From the NCBI RefSeq assembly GCF_002160915.1, contig NZ_NFLM01000010.1, positions 1-64,000 on the forward strand: 64,000 nucleotides of DNA. The letters are read 5' to 3'. The DNA is from Faecalibacterium sp. An121. Its GTDB lineage: Bacteria > Bacillota > Clostridia > Oscillospirales > Ruminococcaceae. Positions 3,306-25,766 of this stretch are shown here, piece by piece (the stretch's first letter is position 1; every line of letters begins with the position of its first letter). Made by a program: the position numbers and the translations under genes. A model generated the notes under the pieces. The model was given only the letters and a program-made list of their open reading frames with translations, was not told where the DNA came from and ran no database searches.

Positions 3306-4397
3306 ATGAAAAAACGCATTCTCAGCTTTTTGCTGGCGGCAGCACTGGTGGTGTCCTGCACGCCTTTGGGCGCTTTCGCGGAAGATCCCGCGGACAGTGG
3401 GGTCATCGGCGGCGCCGACGGCCCCACCGCAATCTATGTGACCGAACAGGTGCCTGCGGACGGCCAGACCGCCCCCCAGGACCCTGCCCAGGACCAGGTC
3501 ATGCTGATCCCCGAGACCCCCGCCGAGGACGCGGCTGAAGGCCCCCAGGACCAGCACTCCTTCACCTATGTAGCCCTCGGGGACAGCATCGCGGCCGGCG
3601 TGGGCCTGAGCGATTTCTCCTACACCCCCGCCGAGATCTTCTACGACATCAGCCCCAACTTTACCGGCTACCCCGAGAGCTGCTATGTATCCTATGTAGC
3701 CCAGGGCCTTGGGCTGGACCGGCAGCACGCCCTTGACCTGGGCCTGCCCGCCCTGATGACCAAAGACCTGCTGGAGATGGTGCGGGACGGCCAGATGTCC
3801 GAGTTCAACCAGCCCGCCGGCACCTATTATGTCTATCCCTCTTTCCCCGATTACATCCGCGAGGCCGACGTCATCAGCATCCAGATCGGCATGAACGACG
3901 CCATGGTGCCCTTTGTGGTGTCCATCGGCGAGGCCACCAACTGGAAGTCGGAGCAGCTGGCCAACACCATCGTGTCGGGCGGCTACCGGGACATGGACTT
4001 TAAGACTTTCGTCAGCATGGCCGAGCAGCTGTTCGGGATGCGGCTGACTTTCAAGGAGACCAGCGACCTGTTCTACGCCCTCACCACCGGCGCCTCCAAG
4101 GTGTGCAACCAGGCCTACGAGAACGTGGAGACCTACCTGCCCCAGATCATCGAGGCCATCCGGGCCATCAACCCCGACGCCCAGATCCTCCTGCTGGGCT
4201 GCTACAACCCTGTCCCCCTGCTGTGGACCTGGAGCCATTTCTTCAACCGCTACAACCGCTTTGTCCGCCAGCTGGCCGAGGACACCGGCTGCACCTATGT
4301 GGGCATCCCCCGCACCCGCACCGCCAACGACGGCCACCCCACCACCGCAGGCCACAAGTACATCGCGAATCAGATCATCGACGCCATCGACCGCTGA
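3306..4397 (+). CDS. Secreted SGNH/GDSL-type esterase or lipase
   Basis: The start at 3306 is chosen over the upstream in-frame ATG because AAGGAG lies 7 bases before it and the protein then opens with a classical signal peptide (MKKR, hydrophobic core, cleavage near AFA-E at residues 23-26). The mature protein has the block I motif ALGDSIAAG with nucleophile Ser94, a block III GMND motif, and a C-terminal DGHPTTAGH motif with the Asp and His of the triad. It would hydrolyse an ester outside the cell; lipid and polysaccharide acetyl esters are both possible. Residues 32-45 read GVIGGADGPTAIYV, a motif otherwise familiar from decarboxylase beta subunits (see findings). The gene stands alone. 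Confidence 0.85.
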   Translation: MKKRILSFLLAAALVVSCTPLGAFAEDPADSGVIGGADGPTAIYVTEQVPADGQTAPQDPAQDQVMLIPETPAEDAAEGPQDQHSFTYVALGDSIAAGVGLSDFSYTPAEIFYDISPNFTGYPESCYVSYVAQGLGLDRQHALDLGLPALMTKDLLEMVRDGQMSEFNQPAGTYYVYPSFPDYIREADVISIQIGMNDAMVPFVVSIGEATNWKSEQLANTIVSGGYRDMDFKTFVSMAEQLFGMRLTFKETSDLFYALTTGASKVCNQAYENVETYLPQIIEAIRAINPDAQILLLGCYNPVPLLWTWSHFFNRYNRFVRQLAEDTGCTYVGIPRTRTANDGHPTTAGHKYIANQIIDAIDR

Positions 4398-4428
4398 GCG
4401 GCCCCGTTTTGGCTGCACGATCCTTGTT

Positions 4429-4468
4429 CCCCGCCCGTGTGCACGCGCTGCCCGGACGGGGCTTTTTT
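4429..4468 (+). terminator. Probable terminator after the SGNH hydrolase
   Basis: CCCCGCCCG (4429-4437) pairs with CGGACGGGG (4453-4461) with one mismatch, followed by C and six T residues. Confidence 0.7.
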
Positions 4469-4550
4469 GGCTGCGGTCCGCGCTGGAACGCATCTTTTTT
4501 CGGTGCGGCGGGTCGGCGAAAAAAATCCCGCACTTTTTTCCGGTTTTTTC

Positions 4551-4579
4551 TTGACAGACCGGCCCGATTATGCTATTAT
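4551..4579 (+). promoter_or_regulatory. Promoter of the tRNA-Arg/tRNA-His unit
   Basis: A perfect TTGACA (4551-4556) with a 17-bp spacer to TATTAT (4574-4579), about 60 bp before the first tRNA. Confidence 0.85.
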
Positions 4580-4641
4580 ATCTCTCGCAGCCTGTGCCGA
4601 ACGGCTGTCCCAACAATATCACCCCAATGGGATCAGGACGT

Positions 4642-4715
<74 letters not shown>

Positions 4716-4722
4716 TTGCTGT

Positions 4723-4800
4723 GGTGCCCATAGCGTAGTCGGTTAACGCGCCAGATTGTGGATCTGGAGATCGAGGGTTCGAGTCCCTCTGGGCACCCCA
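4723..4800 (+). tRNA. tRNA-His (anticodon GTG), CCA encoded
   Basis: The acceptor GTGCCCA (4724-4730) pairs with TGGGCAC (4790-4796). The extra G at 4723 faces C at 4797, the G-1:C73 pair that marks histidine tRNAs. The anticodon loop TTGTGGA between CCAGA and TCTGG gives GTG. CCA is encoded at 4798-4800. It lies 7 bases after tRNA-Arg on the same transcript. Confidence 0.95.
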
Positions 4801-4803
4801 CCA

Positions 4804-4836
4804 AGCCTCTCTTGCCTACGCAAGGGAGGCTTTTTT
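4804..4836 (+). terminator. Terminator of the tRNA unit
   Basis: AGCCTCTCTTGC (4804-4815) pairs with GCAAGGGAGGCT (4820-4831) with one G-T pair and a 4-nt loop, followed by a T run. Confidence 0.92.
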
Positions 4837-4880
4837 GCGTGACGGAAAGGTCATGTTCGCTTCTCTGCGTCATCTTGTGC

Positions 4881-4910
4881 TTGACACAGGCGGTCCGGAT
4901 GTGGTAAGAT
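4881..4910 (+). promoter_or_regulatory. Promoter upstream of the DUF3793 gene
   Basis: TTGACA (4881-4886), an 18-bp spacer and TAAGAT (4905-4910). The expected start point falls on the operator-like sequence at 4917-4932. Confidence 0.75.
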
Positions 4911-4916
4911 ACACTC

Positions 4917-4932
4917 GTTAGTAATAGCTAAC
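4917..4932 (+). promoter_or_regulatory. Putative metalloregulator operator, copy 1
   Basis: GTTAGTAATAGCTAAC is a 16-bp imperfect palindrome (GTTAG and CTAAC arms) placed on the transcription start. Near-identical sequences recur at 5804-5819 (GTTAGTAAGAGTAAAC) and 5753-5768 (GTTAGTTTTTACAAAC) before feoA. The link to the DtxR/MntR-type regulator encoded at 9004-9393 is inferred from repetition, placement and gene neighbourhood. Confidence 0.6.
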
Positions 4933-4979
4933 CTTTAAGGCAGACTTTCCTGCCTTCTTTTTAGCCCACAAGGTTAGCT
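4926..4979 (+). promoter_or_regulatory. Leader hairpin with an internal attenuator-like stem
   Basis: A perfect 10-bp inverted repeat, AGCTAACCTT (4926-4935) with AAGGTTAGCT (4970-4979), encloses a second stem, AAGGCAG (4937-4943) with CTGCCTT (4950-4956), which is followed by C and five T residues as in a terminator. The transcript from 4917 would run straight into it, so early termination before the DUF3793 gene is plausible. No known riboswitch class is recognised. Confidence 0.5.
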
Positions 4980-5061
4980 TTGACTTACCATTTTGTATAC
5001 CCGGCCCATTACCAGGCATACTGGATAGGGACCCATTCTGACTTGTGCGAGGTATGACCTT

Positions 5062-5646
5062 ATGGAGAGAAACTTCGAGACCGTGATGATCGAGCAGTGC
5101 TCCCCCGTTCTGGCGGGGCTGAAGGCCGCCAACCTGTTCCGCCATGAATGCCGGGACCGGCAGGCCCTCTATGCCACCGTTGCCGGCTGGAACGCCCAGC
5201 TGAGCGGCCGGGGCATCCGCCTGCTGGTTTTGAAGGAATGCCCCATCCGGCATTGGTTCCTGATCTACCTGTACCGGCCCGCCCGGCTGGAAGCGGTACT
5301 GGGACGGCCCGAGGTGCGCCAGTTTTTGCAGCAGGAAGGCTACGCCCTGCCCTTGCAGGCGGCCGGCGATGCCTGCCAGCCGCTGCTGGCCCAGCTGGCG
5401 GGACGGCTGGCCTGCGACGGCGATTTCCCCCACGAGATCGGGGTCTTTCTGGGCTACCCGCTGGAGGATGTGGTGGGCTTTATCCGCAACCGCGGCCAGA
5501 ACTTCACCTGCTGCGGCTGCTGGAAAGCCTACGGCGACCCCGACGCAGCCCGCCGCCTGTTTGCCCAACTGAACAAGTGCACTGCCGTCTATCTGCGGCT
5601 GTTCCACAGCGGCACCCCCATCCTGCGTCTGGCCGTGGCGGCCTGA
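5062..5646 (+). CDS. DUF3793 family protein, iron-locus associated
   Basis: A 194-residue soluble protein with no signal peptide or membrane helix. The family's conserved core is present: FPHEIGVFLGYPLEDVVGFI, then NRGQNF and a Cys-rich CCGCWKAYGD segment, ending in an LNKC motif. From recall of the family, DUF3793 genes are common in clostridia, often beside feo or other iron genes, and their function is unknown. The nearby feo operon and the shared operator-like sequence at the promoter fit an iron-related role. GAGGT lies about 8 bases before the ATG. The four Cys near residues 151-173 could bind metal; this is inference. Confidence 0.8.
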   Translation: MERNFETVMIEQCSPVLAGLKAANLFRHECRDRQALYATVAGWNAQLSGRGIRLLVLKECPIRHWFLIYLYRPARLEAVLGRPEVRQFLQQEGYALPLQAAGDACQPLLAQLAGRLACDGDFPHEIGVFLGYPLEDVVGFIRNRGQNFTCCGCWKAYGDPDAARRLFAQLNKCTAVYLRLFHSGTPILRLAVAA

Positions 5647-5752
5647 GCTTTGCGTTTGGGCGAAGCCAAGTTCCATCCCCGCCTTTGCTTTGGTGCATCC
5701 GTTTCAGGCGCCAAAAGCGCCAAAAAGCCGGTTCCGGCCAGGGAGGAAAATT

Positions 5753-5768
5753 GTTAGTTTTTACAAAC
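5753..5768 (+). promoter_or_regulatory. Putative metalloregulator operator, copy 3
   Basis: GTTAGTTTTTACAAAC matches copy 1 at 11 of 16 positions, including the GTTAGT and AAC ends. It lies about 25 bp upstream of the -35 element of the feo promoter. Confidence 0.4.
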
Positions 5769-5791
5769 TTACCAAATTTTGGTCAAAGCGA

Positions 5792-5820
5792 TTGACTTTC
5801 GAAGTTAGTAAGAGTAAACT
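5792..5820 (+). promoter_or_regulatory. Promoter of the feo operon
   Basis: TTGACT (5792-5797), a 17-bp spacer and TAAACT (5815-5820). The spacer and the -10 element are covered by operator-like copy 2. Confidence 0.7.
5804..5819 (+). promoter_or_regulatory. Putative metalloregulator operator, copy 2
   Basis: GTTAGTAAGAGTAAAC matches copy 1 in GTTAGTAA, the following AG and the terminal AAC. It sits between the -35 and -10 boxes, so a bound repressor would block RNA polymerase directly. Confidence 0.6.
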
Positions 5821-5900
5821 ACCTACTGTGAAGTTTGTATGAACGAACCGCGCCGTCCCCTGCCTGCGGCGGCGCGCCGATGAAAGGAAGCTGTATCGAT

Positions 5901-6113
5901 ATGATGCCTCTGACAATGGCAAGGCCGGGACAGACCGTCACCATCCGGCGGATCACCGGCCGGGACGAAGTGCGCCAGCATCTGGCCGAACTCGGCTTTG
6001 TGGTGGACAGCAATGTAACGGTGGTCCAGTCGATCGGCGGCAGCCTGATCCTGCAGGTCAAAGACGGCCGCATCGCCCTGGACGGCGGCATGGCCAACCG
6101 GATCCTGTTCTGA
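5901..6113 (+). CDS. feoA: FeoA domain protein, first copy
   Basis: A 70-residue SH3-like FeoA protein, thought to bind FeoB and modulate ferrous iron import. It shows the family pattern of an N-terminal PGQTVTIRRI strand, the helix with LAELGFVVDSNV, and a C-terminal GGRIAL-like turn (here DGRIALDGGMANRI). Position 5901 is taken as the start because AAAGGAAG precedes it by about 10 bases; a second ATG follows at once. It is the first gene of feoA-feoA-feoB. Confidence 0.85.
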   Translation: MMPLTMARPGQTVTIRRITGRDEVRQHLAELGFVVDSNVTVVQSIGGSLILQVKDGRIALDGGMANRILF

Positions 6114-6199
6114 CCCGCCCCTGTTTTGGTAAAACGGCCGGGGCCCCTTGCCCTGACGGTTTTGTATATTGCGATTTGATGCAGTAGGAGGAACAAACT

Positions 6200-18435: not shown

Positions 18436-19326
18436 TCATCCTTTCCCGCAGATCAGCTCCCGCATGGCCTTCATGGCGGTGGAGCGGGGACGGGCGGTGT
18501 CCTCCACCAGTGTGATGGCCCGCTCGGGGACAGGCTGGTCCAGCGGGATGCAGAACAGCTCGCCCCGGGCGATGCGGGGCGCCACCAGCTGCTCGGGGTA
18601 AAAGCCCACCCCCAGCCCATGCTCCACCACCGGCAGGATCTGGTCCATGGTCGCCACCTCGATATCCACCCGGAAGGACAGCCCGTTGGAGGTGAAGAAC
18701 TGCTGGTAAAAATCGTAGGTGCTGCTGTCCTGGCCGATGCACGCCAGGGGATACCGGGCCAGCTGGCTCAGACTGCACCGCCGGGTGGCCAGGTCGCTGA
18801 ATGCCGGCCCGCACACCGCCACCTCCCGGAAGCGCACCAGCTCGGTCTGGCGCAGGCCGCGGGCGGTCAGCAGGGGGGCGGTGATCACCGCAAAATCGCT
18901 CTGGCCCTGCTTCAGCCGCTCGATGGCCTGGGGGGTGGTCTCATTGGTGATCCGCAGATGCACCCCGGGGTAGCGGGTGCGGAACACCGACAGCTTGTCC
19001 AGCAGGATCATATGCAGGGCCGCCTCGCTGGCACTGATGGACAAAGAGCCGCTCTCCAGGCTGCCGTCCTGGCGCAGCTCCTCCTCCCCCAGACGGATCT
19101 CCTCCATGGCCGCCGCCACCCGCCGGTACAGCCGCTGGCCCTCGGGCGTCAGGGTGATGCCCTTGTTGGAGCGGTGGAACAGCTTGCAGCCCAGCTCCTG
19201 CTCCAGGTTCTTCATGCAGCGGGTGATGTTGGGCTGATTGTTCTTCAGCACCTCCGCTGCCCGGGTAAAACTGCGGCATTGGGCTACCGCATAGAAGATC
19301 CGGTAATAATCATAGTTGATGGTCAT
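18436..19326 (-). CDS. LysR family transcriptional regulator
   Basis: A 296-residue LysR-type regulator. The N-terminal winged helix reads YYRIFYAVAQCRSFTRAAEVL then NNQPNITRCMKNLEQELGCKLF, and the PBP2-like effector domain follows from about residue 90. It is transcribed away from the ATP synthase operon, whose promoter lies about 80 bp from its start. LysR proteins often act on the divergent neighbour, so control of atp is possible but unproven. The effector is unknown. Confidence 0.88.
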   Translation of the reverse strand: MTINYDYYRIFYAVAQCRSFTRAAEVLKNNQPNITRCMKNLEQELGCKLFHRSNKGITLTPEGQRLYRRVAAAMEEIRLGEEELRQDGSLESGSLSISASEAALHMILLDKLSVFRTRYPGVHLRITNETTPQAIERLKQGQSDFAVITAPLLTARGLRQTELVRFREVAVCGPAFSDLATRRCSLSQLARYPLACIGQDSSTYDFYQQFFTSNGLSFRVDIEVATMDQILPVVEHGLGVGFYPEQLVAPRIARGELFCIPLDQPVPERAITLVEDTARPRSTAMKAMRELICGKG

Positions 19327-19492: not shown

Positions 19493-20332
19493 ATGAAGCA
19501 GAATAAGCGGAAACTTATCCTGTGGCTCGTCCTGATCGTGGTGCTGGCGGCTGCATGTGTCCTGACCGGCGGGTCCGGCGGGGAAACCGAGACCGTGCAG
19601 GAAGTCATGCGGGACGCGGTGCTCCATGAGAGCGGCCAGGTGAGCCTGTTTGGGATAAGGAATGTAAACCCGGGCCTGATCTCGGCCTATGTGGTGACGG
19701 CCCTGCTGCTGGTGCTGGCCGCCTGCCTGCGCATCTTTGCGGTGCCCCGCTTCCAGAATGTACCGGGCAGGCTGCAAATGCTGATCGAGCTGTGGGTGGG
19801 TACCTTCAGCGGGATGGCGCAGTCCAACAGCCCGCACCACAACAAGGTGCTGGGCCCCTATATCTTTGGCGCGGGCACCTATATCTTTGTCAGCACCCTG
19901 TTCGAGATGTTCGGCCTGCAGGCCGTCACCACGGCGGGCCGCTCCATCGCCCTGCCCGCTCCCCTGTCGGATATCAACGGCGCCATCGCCATGGGCGTGC
20001 TGTCCTATCTGTTCATCCTGTCGGGCGGCGTGTCGGCTGTGGGCCTGCGCGGCGTGGGCCGCACGCTCAAGGAGTTCTCCCTGCCCATCTCCATGAGCTT
20101 CCGTCTGTTCGGCGCTCTGCTGTCCGGCCTGCTGGTGACCGAACTGGTCTACTATTATATCACCCTCAGCTTTGTGCTGCCGGTGATCGTAGGCGTCATG
20201 TTCACCCTGCTGCACGCACTGATCCAGAGCTACGTGCTGACCATGCTGGTGGCCCTGTACTACGGCGAGGTGTCCGAGCCCGTCCATCCCAAGCAAGAAA
20301 AGAAGAAAGACAAGAAGGCAGTTGCGGCTTGA
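19493..20332 (+). CDS. atpB: F-type ATP synthase subunit a
   Basis: A 279-residue membrane subunit that forms the ion half-channels against the c-ring. The essential Arg is in SMSFRLFGALLSG, where most families have Asn in place of this Ala after Gly. A late helix carries YVLTMLVALYYGE. The N-terminus is a hydrophobic anchor followed by an extracytoplasmic stretch. AAAGGAG precedes the ATG. No atpI or atpZ gene precedes it. It opens an operon ordered a, c, b, alpha, gamma, beta, epsilon. Confidence 0.93.
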   Translation: MKQNKRKLILWLVLIVVLAAACVLTGGSGGETETVQEVMRDAVLHESGQVSLFGIRNVNPGLISAYVVTALLLVLAACLRIFAVPRFQNVPGRLQMLIELWVGTFSGMAQSNSPHHNKVLGPYIFGAGTYIFVSTLFEMFGLQAVTTAGRSIALPAPLSDINGAIAMGVLSYLFILSGGVSAVGLRGVGRTLKEFSLPISMSFRLFGALLSGLLVTELVYYYITLSFVLPVIVGVMFTLLHALIQSYVLTMLVALYYGEVSEPVHPKQEKKKDKKAVAA

Positions 20333-20366
20333 GGTTTTGCCGCTGATCTAGGAGGTAAATACGATC

Positions 20367-20744
20367 ATGAAGACCCTGAACATCAAAAAAGTCCTTTCCG
20401 TCCTGTTGGTCATGCTGGCCATGGTGGTGACCATGGCCGCCCCCGCTTTTGCTGACGAGCCCGCTTCCGCCGAGCCCGCCGCCACCCAGTCCGCCCAGGC
20501 CGAGACCGAGGCCGGCGATTCCACCACCGGCAAGGCCATCGCTTCGGCTGTGGCCGTGGGCCTGGCCGCCGCCGGCGGCGCCATCGGCATGGGCCTGCTG
20601 GGCGCCAAGGCCACCGAGAGCATCGCACGCCAGCCCGAGGCCGACGGCAAGATCCGCACCACCATGATGCTGACCCTGGTCTTTATCGAGACCGCCATCA
20701 TCTATGCCCTGCTGGTGGACATCCTGATCATCTTCGTTCTGTAA
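20367..20744 (+). CDS. atpE: F-type ATP synthase subunit c with N-terminal signal peptide
   Basis: A 125-residue c subunit, against the usual 70-90. Residues 1-29 look like a cleavable signal peptide (KK, hydrophobic core, AFA-D site) and residues 30-53 form an Ala/Glu-rich linker. The c hairpin follows: helix 1 AIASAVAVGLAAAGGAIGMG, the polar loop ESIARQPEADGKI, and helix 2 with the ion-binding Glu108 in FIETAIIYAL. The Gln of helix 1 that typifies Na+-binding c subunits is replaced by Met, so H+ coupling is favoured, although Thr follows the Glu. AGGAGG precedes the ATG. Confidence 0.93.
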   Translation: MKTLNIKKVLSVLLVMLAMVVTMAAPAFADEPASAEPAATQSAQAETEAGDSTTGKAIASAVAVGLAAAGGAIGMGLLGAKATESIARQPEADGKIRTTMMLTLVFIETAIIYALLVDILIIFVL

Positions 20745-20760
20745 GGCGGGAGGTGTCATT

Positions 20761-21270
20761 ATGAGTGGTCTCCCTCTTAACATCGATATCCAGCAGATCC
20801 TTCTGCATATGCTCAACTTTGTCATCCTGGCAGGCGGGCTGTATTTCATCCTGTATGCCCCGGTGAAGAAGTTCATGGACCAGCGCGAAGCCCACTACGC
20901 CGAGATGGACCAGGCTGCCGCCGACAAGCTGGCCGAGGCCGAAAAGCTGGCCGCCAGCCACCAGGCCCAGCTGGACAAGGTGGAGGACGAGCTGCGGGAG
21001 CGCCGCGCCGAAAGCCAGAAGATCGCCCAGGCCGCCGCCCAGCAGCAGCTGGACCGCGCCCAGCAGCAGGCCGACCAGATCATCGCCGGCGCCCGCAAGA
21101 GCGCCGAGAGCATCCGCGCCAAGGCCGTGGCCGACAGCCAGAAAGAGCTGAAGGAGCTGGCCATGGCCGCCGCCGAAAAGCTGGCGCTGGGCTCCAGCCG
21201 GGACGCCTTTGACGAATTTTTGAACCTGGCAGAGGAAGGGAAACGCAATGAGCAACATGAAAAAGCCTGA
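20761..21270 (+). CDS. atpF: F-type ATP synthase subunit b
   Basis: A 169-residue peripheral stalk subunit. One N-terminal membrane helix (about residues 14-33, [20 protein letters not shown]) leads into a long charged coiled coil rich in Ala, Gln and Glu. It ends in [19 protein letters not shown], the region that normally meets the delta subunit. No separate delta gene follows; the end of this gene overlaps by 23 bases the start of an alpha subunit that carries a delta-like domain. Confidence 0.93.
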
Positions 21271-23011
21271 TGAAGCCACTGCCGCCCTCCTTTACAGCGC
21301 CGACGCGCCCAGCGAGGAGCAGCGCCAGCGGTTTGCGGACTTTCTGGCCCGCACCTACCCCGACCGCACCCTGACGCTGGAGTGGAAGCGGGATATGCGC
21401 CTGAAGGGCGGTTTCCGCCTGGAGGTGGGCTCCGATATCTACGACTGGAGCCTCAAGGGCCGCATGGCCCAGCTGCGCAGCCGCATCGATGCGCTGGACG
21501 AGCGGCAGGAGGACATCCTGCCCCTGATGCGCCAGACCATCGAGGACTGGCGGCCCAACGTCAAACCCGAGGAGATCGGCACCGTGCTGACGGTGGGCGA
21601 TGAGATCGCCACCATCAGCGGCCTGGAGGACGCCGTCTACGGCGAAGTGCTGCTGTTTGCCAACGGCATCCGGGGCATGGTACAGGAACTGCGCCCCCAC
21701 GAGCTGTGCTGCGTGCTGTTCGGCGACAGCAGCGACATCGAGGCCGGCGACCCCGTCATCCGCACCGGCAAGGTGGCCGGCGTCCCGGTGGGCGAAGGCT
21801 TCCTGGGCCGGGTGGTGGATGCCCTGGGCAGCCCCATCGACGGCGGCGACCCCATCCAGGCCGATGCCTTCTACCCCGTGGAGCGGCCCGCTCCCGGCAT
21901 CATCGACCGCCAGCCGGTCAACCAGCCCATGGAGACCGGCCTGCTGGCCATCGACGCTTTGTTCCCCATCGGCCGGGGCCAGCGTGAGCTGATCATCGGC
22001 GACCGCCAGACCGGCAAGACTGCCGTGGCCCTGGACACCATCCTGAACCAGAAGGGCAAAAACGTCGTCTGCATCTATGTGGCCATCGGTCAGAAGGCAA
22101 GCTCGGTGGCCCTGCTGGCCGAGAACCTGCGCAAGCGGGGCGCCATGGACTACTGCATCATCGTCAGCGCCTCGGCCAGCGACTCGGCTTCCCTGCAATA
22201 TATCGCCCCCTACGCGGGGTGCAGCCTGGGCGAATACTTCATGCACCAGGGCCGGGACGTGCTGATCGTCTACGACGATCTGTCCAAGCACGCCATCGCT
22301 TACCGCGCCCTGTCCCTGCTGCTGGAGCGCAGCCCCGGCCGTGAAGCCTATCCCGGCGACGTGTTCTATCTGCACAGCCGCCTGCTGGAGCGGTCGGCCC
22401 ACCTGTCCGACGAGAAGGGCGGTGGCAGCATGACCGCCCTGCCCATCATCGAGACCCAGGCCGGCGACGTGTCGGCCTATATCCCCACCAACGTCATCTC
22501 CATCACCGACGGCCAGCTGTTTTTGGAGAGCAGCCTGTTCTTTGCCGGCCAGCGTCCCGCGGTCAACGTGGGCCTGTCGGTGTCCCGTGTGGGCGGCGAC
22601 GCCCAGACCAAGGCCATGAAAAAGGCCGCCGGCGCCATGCGCCTGGACCTGGCCCAGTACCGCGAGATGGAAGTGTTCACCCAGTTCTCCAGCGATCTGG
22701 ACGAGACCACCAAGCGCCAGCTGACCTACGGCCAGGGCCTGATGCGCCTGCTGCGCCAAAAGCAGTACCATCCCCTGACCCAGCACGAGCAGGTCATCAC
22801 CCTGGTGGCGGCCCTGGCCCATGTGCTCCAGGACATCCCCGCCGAGCAGATCAACGCCTGCCAGCAGGAGATGCTGGCCTGGTTCGGCCAGCAGGACCCC
22901 GCCCTGTGCCAGCGGATCGACTCCACCGGCCTGCTGAGCGACGACGACCGCCAGCAGATCATCGACCTGGCCCGCACCTTTGTGGCCGGTTATCAGAAGA
23001 AGGGGCAGTAA
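21248..23011 (+). CDS. atpA: ATP synthase alpha subunit with fused delta C-terminal domain
   Basis: A 587-residue protein, about 80 longer than a normal alpha. Residues ~10-82 match the C-terminal domain of the delta/OSCP subunit: [15 protein letters not shown], then [19 protein letters not shown] and [14 protein letters not shown], the counterpart of the vDpsLiGGf...viDgSvrGrLerL pattern. A standard alpha follows from about residue 93, with Walker A GDRQTGKT at 251-258 (169-176 in E. coli alpha). AGGAAGG precedes the ATG, the reading frame is unbroken and the start overlaps atpF. No stand-alone atpH is present in the operon. Confidence 0.92.
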
Positions 23012-23014
23012 GCC

Positions 23015-25766
<2,752 letters not shown>

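Follow-up and report, generated by a model that had tools for sequence, protein, structure and literature searches.

Introduction

One peripheral stalk and one a-subunit per enzyme are treated as constants of the F-type ATP synthases, and FoF1 with multiple a-subunits had not been identified so far, as stated in the study that comes closest to the case described here (Ueno et al., Nat Commun 2025; PMC12229609). In that study, residues 2-104 of the delta subunit of the PS3 enzyme were deleted and the remainder was fused to alpha, with the authors arguing that the delta N-terminal domain, placed on the threefold axis, limits the number of stalks to one. Here we describe a natural gene of the same plan in Faecalibacterium sp. 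An121 (assembly GCF_002160915.1), where the C-terminal domain (CTD) of delta is joined to the N-terminus of alpha within an ATP synthase operon on contig NZ_NFLM01000010.1. The stretch of DNA that was analysed, referred to as the window, comprises positions 1 to 64,000 of this contig on the forward strand (64,000 nucleotides).

For the engineered protein (deltaDeltaN-alpha), PMC12229609 reports 0, 1, 2 and 3 stalks in 15, 51, 26 and 8% of particles by cryo-electron microscopy (cryo-EM), with a mean of 1.26 stalks that its authors blame on loss during grid preparation. The a- and b-subunits were present at 2.2 and 1.8 times the normal ratio, with about two b2/a units on average by gel, and H+/ATP was 5.8 as compared to 3.0, with lower proton-pump activity. 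The Discussion of the same paper names a natural deltaDeltaN-alpha operon in Acidaminococcus fermentans, along with UniProt entries G4Q3K6 and A0A1I2C5T3, and describes a multi-stalk enzyme in that organism as "highly likely" and awaiting verification. This was the only paper on a natural delta-alpha fusion found in the open-access literature in PMC, the scope of the literature searches given here (subscription journals and preprints lie outside it). Two further arrangements with delta joined to another subunit are the N-ATPases, which have the operon order beta-epsilon-X-X-a-c-b-alpha-gamma (PMC11738941), and the actinobacterial b-delta fusion of Mycobacterium and Gordonia (PMC5709465).

Results

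The C-terminal domain of delta is fused to a complete alpha subunit

The fused gene lies in an F-type ATP synthase operon on the plus strand of the window at 19493-25766, with the order a-c-b-(deltaCTD-alpha)-gamma-beta-epsilon (Table 1). A first-pass annotation, made from the letters and their open reading frames (ORFs), had proposed that the delta/OSCP C-terminal domain sits on the N-terminus of alpha, and this observation is confirmed by the Pfam match listed in Table 1, which has an expect value (E) of 2.2e-8 when the full-length protein is searched and 7e-10 when residues 1-91 are searched by themselves. What follows in the chain is a complete alpha, with ATP-synt_ab_N, ATP-synt_ab and ATP-synt_ab_C matched in order. 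The operon order and the absence of a delta gene between b and alpha also stand as proposed, as atpF overlaps the fused gene by 23 bases and therefore leaves no room for a delta gene between them. Subunit b of the window carries no OSCP part that Pfam matches up to E 1. The bacterial F-type set of alpha, beta, gamma, epsilon, a, b and c is thus found in one operon, including the ordinary a, b and c genes for complete stalks, while the stand-alone delta is missing and replaced by the fused domain.

The expected structural match to the delta C-terminal domain was likewise obtained. An AlphaFold model of residues 1-180 was built from 87 sequences (predicted local distance difference test, pLDDT, 83; predicted template modelling score 0.58), and alignment A4 left out 16 of the 103 sequences, these being near-copies, L105, L120 (which contains an X), and the divergent L152 and L153. 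When this model was used in a fold search of the PDB, the top three matches were chains I, K and J of 9jc1 (template modelling scores of 0.68-0.71), which hold the PS3 delta C-terminal domain fused to alpha. The sequence alignment to 9jc1 chain I spans residues 12-580 of the window protein and is broken three times, by 3 residues at the linker and twice by a single residue close to the C-terminus. Taken together, the alignment and the fold match identify the window gene as a natural counterpart of the engineered design. A model of the whole alpha from six sequences was poor (pLDDT 48.5) and was set aside.

No other delta, alpha or rotary ATPase in the genome

The genome is a draft of 2.71 Mb in 62 contigs with 99.32% completeness. 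A search for a second OSCP gene returned none up to E<=10, the sole match being the fused gene, in agreement with the earlier expectation that no atpH would be found elsewhere. A search with the atpA model (E<=1e-5) returned the fused alpha and the neighbouring beta and nothing else, and no other rotary ATPase was found in it; because archaeal control genomes match in the same search, an A/V-type enzyme would have shown up.

The alpha-binding half of delta, which had been proposed to have disappeared, was searched for with a profile built from six delta N-terminal domains. The best match in this genome had E 0.109 over 49 positions, and across ten other genomes in which fused forms alone were seen the lowest value was E 0.008, for 32 positions within a 97-residue frame (G591), a match that was taken as chance. 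The profile was positive in 8/8 genomes known to hold the domain, either in full-length fusions or in canonical deltas, with E 2.3e-4 for the weakest true match. As the profile finds the domain in all eight holder genomes and comes up empty here, the N-terminal half of delta appears to be really gone from this genome.

The fusion is widespread in Clostridia

A scan of contigs for relatives of the fused N-terminus yielded 177 loci, of which 80 were kept. The delta CTD and alpha share a reading frame in 80/80 of these, as established by pattern for 78 and by inspection of the sequence for L105 and L117; three (L057, L060 and L072) run off the contig end within alpha. Among the 79 loci with a recognised b, the b stop codon falls downstream of the earliest start available to the fused ORF in 77, the exceptions being L077 and L078. 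Judged by their labels, the nearest relatives are from Faecalibacterium (sp. An122, gallinarum, Candidatus gallistercoris), followed by Lawsonibacter, Oscillibacter, Flintibacter, Anaeromassilibacillus, Mogibacterium and others. The same operon is present in named strains, among them Faecalibacterium gallinarum JCM 17207, Flintibacter muris DSM 110149 and Anaeromassilibacillus senegalensis.

By a reading of the match list, in which the fused genes read as sequence are those of the window and of genome G171, 25 of the 31 genomes of the genus have a delta CTD match in a frame too long for delta (at least 311 residues; two cut). Nineteen of these also have a canonical delta and six, including the window's, do not, while the remaining six genus genomes comprise five with a canonical delta only and one with delta in two pieces. 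The genus seems to hold two fusion lineages, one window-like (frames of about 590-615) and one divergent (603) that lies beside a canonical operon and is known as sequence from the second operon of G171 (L039). Fusions are carried by at least 18 of 197 genomes sampled from the family (7 full-length delta-alpha, 9 CTD-only, 2 triple). Of 391 genomes sampled from the class, at least 35 have a frame long enough for a fusion (583-691 residues) and free of stops, a count that leaves out five rows with an internal stop and one cut frame. All 20 of the class-sample loci that were fetched proved to be fusions, of which 17 lack the N-terminal domain and 3 retain it. The fusion is not an artefact, as the same architecture is present in about a hundred other Clostridia loci; the first-pass annotation had called for such a survey of related genomes.

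Trees of the alpha core, from which the fused part had been removed, were used to place these forms relative to one another. The 140-row tree left out cut alphas (five short rows; match ending before residue 400) and identical rows, while the 77-row tree omitted 65 of 99 CTD fusions and 13 of 30 canonical rows and kept all 10 full-length and 16 triple fusions. The canonical alphas form one group, with Shimodaira-Hasegawa-like approximate likelihood ratio test support of 89 (140 rows) and support of 97/85 (77 rows). The window (row L052) falls within a large group whose fusions lack the N-terminal domain; close to its base, full-length and shortened forms of the f31 family are mixed and weakly resolved. 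In the 77-row tree, the shortened L041 is sister to the full-length L037 (100/99). Four further shortened fusions (L150-L153) lie beside the canonical group. The simplest reading is therefore that whole delta would have been fused first and its N-terminal half lost afterwards, more than once, although the trees are unrooted, contain several long branches and do not prove the number of origins.

Two side observations concern the organisation of these fusions. The whole-delta fusions (L032-L038, L145, L148 and L149; frames of 671-691) would give each enzyme three N-terminal domains contending for a single position on the threefold axis. At L048 (5424-5735) and L049 (5179-5520), both in genomes of very small size (0.7-0.8 Mb), delta and alpha are separated by a mini-gene. 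It encodes what by eye appears to be an alpha N-terminal helix and, after this, another copy of the delta C-terminal domain (OSCP 96-172, E 9.1e-15 in L049), a layout that looks as if the segment from the end of delta to the start of alpha had been duplicated in tandem.

Triple fusions add a membrane anchor to alpha

A more extreme design was found in the family survey at L043 (genome G120), where a frame of 750 residues at 3897-6149 contains a membrane helix, a b-like stalk, the delta CTD (residues 158-234 on OSCP 97-171) and alpha. A separate b gene precedes this triple fusion (Pfam ATP-synt_B, E 7.3e-8). Pfam shows no b match inside the fused chain, and its N-terminal part is read as b' because a membrane helix is followed there by a charged region. 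A congener, G196 (L155), has the same triple fusion with 67% identity up to the contig end, and further triple fusions were found in 17 of 394 genomes of the order, with frames of 736-784 residues (one cut to 521 by the contig end). The 15 of these 17 that were fetched, together with L043, all have the order a-c-b-(b'-deltaCTD-alpha)-gamma-beta, with epsilon recognised in 4/16, and a strongly hydrophobic N-terminal stretch is present in 16/16 (Kyte-Doolittle 2.0-2.8). In the 77-row tree, the triple fusions (L043, L160-L174) form one clade (100/100) apart from that of the window.

The triple fusion is the only alpha found (E<=1e-100) in 13 of 19 triple-fusion genomes, those 13 being 62 to 100% complete; among the others, G733 is cut by a contig edge, four have a second alpha, and G196 gave no match. 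Where the triple fusion is the only alpha, each F1 would therefore have three membrane anchors, unless the chain is cut. No b'-delta-alpha triple fusion was found in the open-access literature searched in PMC. L105 (frame 797) was considered as a triple fusion and not counted, as c and most of b are absent between a and the fused gene; this gap (L105:3431-4600), on a contig of a metagenome-assembled genome, is probably an assembly deletion.

Subunit c is not of the Na+ type in fused loci

A c subunit was rated as Na+-type here when helix 1 contains Q or E and helix 2 contains E-S/T-T, the residues that mark this type. The c of the window has M in helix 1 where Na+ types have Q/E, and E-T-A in helix 2, so that its ion site is not of the Na+ type. 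Among canonical loci, c was found in 30/34 and 28 of these 30 are Na+-type, as compared to none in the full-length-fusion loci (c found in 9/10) and none in the CTD-fusion loci (c found in 94/106, giving 95 rows of which one is probably a spurious frame). The one triple-fusion c that was classed, with Q in helix 1 and E-A-L in helix 2, fails the Na+ rule. In two genomes with both operons (G171, with L051 and L039; G141, with L031 and L045), the canonical c reads as Na+-type and the fused c does not. As the canonical loci come from one family and the fusions are interrelated, this contrast represents a few events and not a hundred. These residue patterns fit the view that the fused enzyme would be the cell's proton enzyme. 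In PMC11738941, the full Mulkidjanian 2008 motif is applied in a similar manner.

The c of the window is also extended at its N-terminus, by a stretch that resembles a signal peptide followed by a linker. With c starts picked by a simple rule, the number of residues before the RQP loop has a median of 83 in 95 CTD-fusion genes (at least 65 in 81/95) versus 42 in 33 canonical genes, and the extension is missing from c in the loci with full-length (median 34) or triple (median 37) fusions.

Selection and translation start

Across 28 pairs among eight Faecalibacterium-type genes, the ratio of nonsynonymous to synonymous substitution rates (dN/dS) is 0.10-0.54 in the delta part and 0.02-0.16 in the nucleotide-binding domain, which indicates that the delta part is under constraint, less so than the catalytic core. 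Low synonymous divergence was seen in the linker of some Faecalibacterium pairs, where the comparison covers about 26 gapped codons with dN/dS of 0.36-3.42, and neither value was used.

Another possibility raised in the first-pass annotation was that translation begins inside the gene, after residue 82. Starts at the junction with a Shine-Dalgarno (SD)-like match of at least 4 occur in 48/103 loci versus 49.8 +/- 4.0 in synonymous shuffles (reached in 144/200), and with a match of at least 5 in 33/103 versus 29.5 +/- 3.4 (reached in 37/200). The chosen upstream start has a match of at least 4 in 81/103 loci, a number without a shuffle control; L046 and L063, which are one locus fetched twice, are both included in these start-site counts and in the c-type counts above. 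Internal initiation as a general device therefore finds no support in these sequence comparisons. The window itself is less clear-cut, as it has AGGAGG at 21507-21512 and an in-frame ATG at 21527 with 14 bases between them, and by a simple SD score this internal ATG (4) outscores the overlapping start (1). The Met at 21527 is common to part of the relatives and is Ile in many.

Operon features

The features of the operon are collected in Table 1. A divergent ORF that reads by eye as a LysR-type regulator lies just before the operon, at 18436-19326 on the minus strand.

Table 1. Features of the ATP synthase operon in the window (positions in the window; aa, amino acids)
Feature	Position	Strand	Basis
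atpB, subunit a, 279 aa	19493..20332	+	Pfam ATP-synt_A E 1.7e-17
atpE, subunit c, 125 aa	20367..20744	+	Pfam ATP-synt_C, residues 58-121, E 1.3e-15
atpF, subunit b, 169 aa	20761..21270	+	Pfam ATP-synt_B E 1.6e-13
Fused delta-C-terminal-domain/alpha gene, 587 aa, ATG start	21248..23011	+	ORF, Pfam, TIGR00962, alignment to 9jc1
Delta/OSCP C-terminal domain, residues 11-79	21278..21484	+	Pfam PF00213 profile positions 103-171 of 172; 9jc1 fold match
Linker and alpha N-terminal helix	21485..21571	+	AlphaFold model (helix predicted at residues 90-100); aligned to 9jc1
Alpha subunit proper, residues 86-582	21503..22993	+	TIGR00962 724 bits, cut-off 484
atpG, gamma	23015..23929	+	Pfam ATP-synt E 1.1e-86
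atpD, beta	23926..25338	+	ORF; second, weaker match of the atpA model in the genome
atpC, epsilon	25335..25766	+	Pfam ATP-synt_DE_N E 4.5e-19, ATP-synt_DE E 8.3e-11

Discussion

Stalk number of the fused enzyme

What was observed directly is the fusion, the loss of the delta N-terminal domain, the absence of a further recognisable delta or alpha from the genome, the conservation of the fused part, and the match in sequence and fold to the engineered chain; what we infer beyond this is the stalk number, the extra a-subunits, the higher H+/ATP and their physiological use. The gene product would be a genuine fusion that joins the stalk-docking half of delta to alpha. Every alpha would carry a delta C-terminal domain of its own at the rim of F1, and as each F1 is alpha3 beta3, there would be three such domains per enzyme. 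With the delta N-terminal domain gone, the threefold axis would be unblocked and the three sites equivalent. Each domain could then dock one b2 stalk that brings its own a-subunit, so that one, two or three sites may be filled. As each extra a-subunit adds one more proton per c step, H+/ATP would rise in proportion, a gain that might be paid for by some speed. The interpretation given in the first-pass annotation is supported here. Of the two outcomes between which it left a choice, idle copies or a different stalk number, comparison with the engineered counterpart of PMC12229609 favours the latter. We consider it reasonably probable that this is a natural H+-type F1Fo with more than one stalk.

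Several points weigh against a multi-stalk enzyme. We know of no stalk count for a natural enzyme of this kind. Conservation of the domain is no proof that all three copies are used simultaneously, and the C-terminal part of b is no more conserved in the fused loci than its middle (entropy of 1.9-2.1 versus 1.9-2.4 bits; the membrane part has a mean of 0.7-1.0 bits). The triple fusions belong to a different clade from the window's enzyme. No argument either way is drawn from the essential arginine of a, for which a loose pattern was found in 89/111 a-frames. The engineered enzyme itself averaged just 1.26 stalks by cryo-EM, with half of the particles carrying one (PMC12229609).

This last point also speaks for the most serious rival explanation, in which a single b2/a unit assembles, since a or b is limiting or the stalks interfere with one another, and two of the three domains stay idle. 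The one-stalk class was the commonest in the engineered enzyme (51% by cryo-EM; PMC12229609), the docking end of b is not specially conserved, and two redundant b-binding sites would be tolerable if the fusion chiefly serves to fix the ratio of delta to alpha. However, stalks were seen at all three sites of the engineered enzyme, and sodium dodecyl sulfate polyacrylamide gel electrophoresis and H+/ATP both point to about two on average (PMC12229609). The apparently repeated loss of the N-terminal domain after fusion, as in L041 beside L037 and, with weaker resolution, in the f31 mix, fits a free threefold axis, and the triple-fusion clade anchors every alpha in the membrane. A single stalk is therefore judged possible and the less likely outcome.

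The remaining explanations are far less probable. Internal initiation or proteolysis could yield a short alpha, so that one fused and two short alphas would carry a single ordinary stalk; the AGGAGG upstream of the in-frame ATG in the window, its higher score, and the Met shared by part of the relatives speak for this. The 14-base spacing, the Ile found in many relatives, the lack of excess over synonymous shuffles across 103 loci, and the matches at the upstream start in 81 of them (without shuffle control) speak against it and make it quite improbable. A missed stand-alone delta or N-terminal domain, which would leave an ordinary enzyme with a spare domain, gains something from the draft state of the genome and from the chance that very diverged N-terminal domains evade profiles whose weakest true match was E 2.3e-4. 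It is nonetheless hard to credit, given that no second OSCP was found at E<=10 and that the profile which gave E 0.109 here was positive in every holder genome. Nothing was found in favour of a degenerate or assembly-made fusion without function, which is the least probable, to the point of being negligible, as the architecture recurs in the 80 kept loci of 177 and in 20/20 class loci, the delta part is under purifying selection, and the fused alpha belongs to the genome's only rotary ATPase.

A multi-stalk enzyme thus remains the preferred reading for the window. We also lean, if with a little less assurance, towards a wider proposal, namely that the multi-stalk class is large in Clostridia, that the window enzyme takes up to three b2/a units with a high H+/ATP, and that the triple fusions of about 740-780 residues force three anchored stalks where they are the sole alpha. 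If true, both the c ring and the number of a-subunits would determine H+/ATP, an arrangement that would suit life at low proton-motive force. The architecture is already in print, but there as a few lines on Acidaminococcus (PMC12229609). New here are a near-complete genome with the fused enzyme as its only rotary ATPase, a large clade that includes named strains, full-length relatives with apparently repeated shortening, and a second, more extreme design in the triple fusion, along with the finding that no fused locus read has a Na+-type c while the canonical relatives mostly do. The named strains with the same operon let the question of stalk number be put to native enzymes, and the full-length and triple fusions provide a natural series for how the delta N-terminal domain fixes that number.

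Comparison with known systems

The closest known system is the engineered PS3 enzyme, which shares with the window the delta CTD on the N-terminus of alpha, the deletion of the delta N-terminal domain, ordinary a, b and c, and a linker length within 3 residues; among the 60 chains listed, that of 9jc1 is the one that aligns through the delta part. It differs in being man-made and in having the epsilon C-terminal domain removed, and its stalks were counted. By the description in PMC12229609, the Acidaminococcus fermentans fusion has the same domain loss, the same fusion and the same multi-stalk prediction, in another organism. The N-ATPases resemble the window in lacking a stand-alone delta and in having the delta C-terminal domain carried by another subunit, in their case b, and the N-ATPase b model TIGR03321 matches the window's fused domain weakly (positions 176-245). 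They differ in that the window has the order a-c-b-alpha-gamma-beta-epsilon and an unfused b, and its alpha scores 628 bits with the N-ATPase model TIGR03324, below the cut-off of 750.5, as opposed to 724 bits with TIGR00962, above the cut-off of 484. The actinobacterial b-delta fusion likewise joins delta covalently to a stator subunit, but there delta is on b, while in the window half of delta is on alpha, which is present in three copies. The triple fusions, with b'-deltaCTD-alpha in one chain and a separate b, recall the window-type and actinobacterial plans together.

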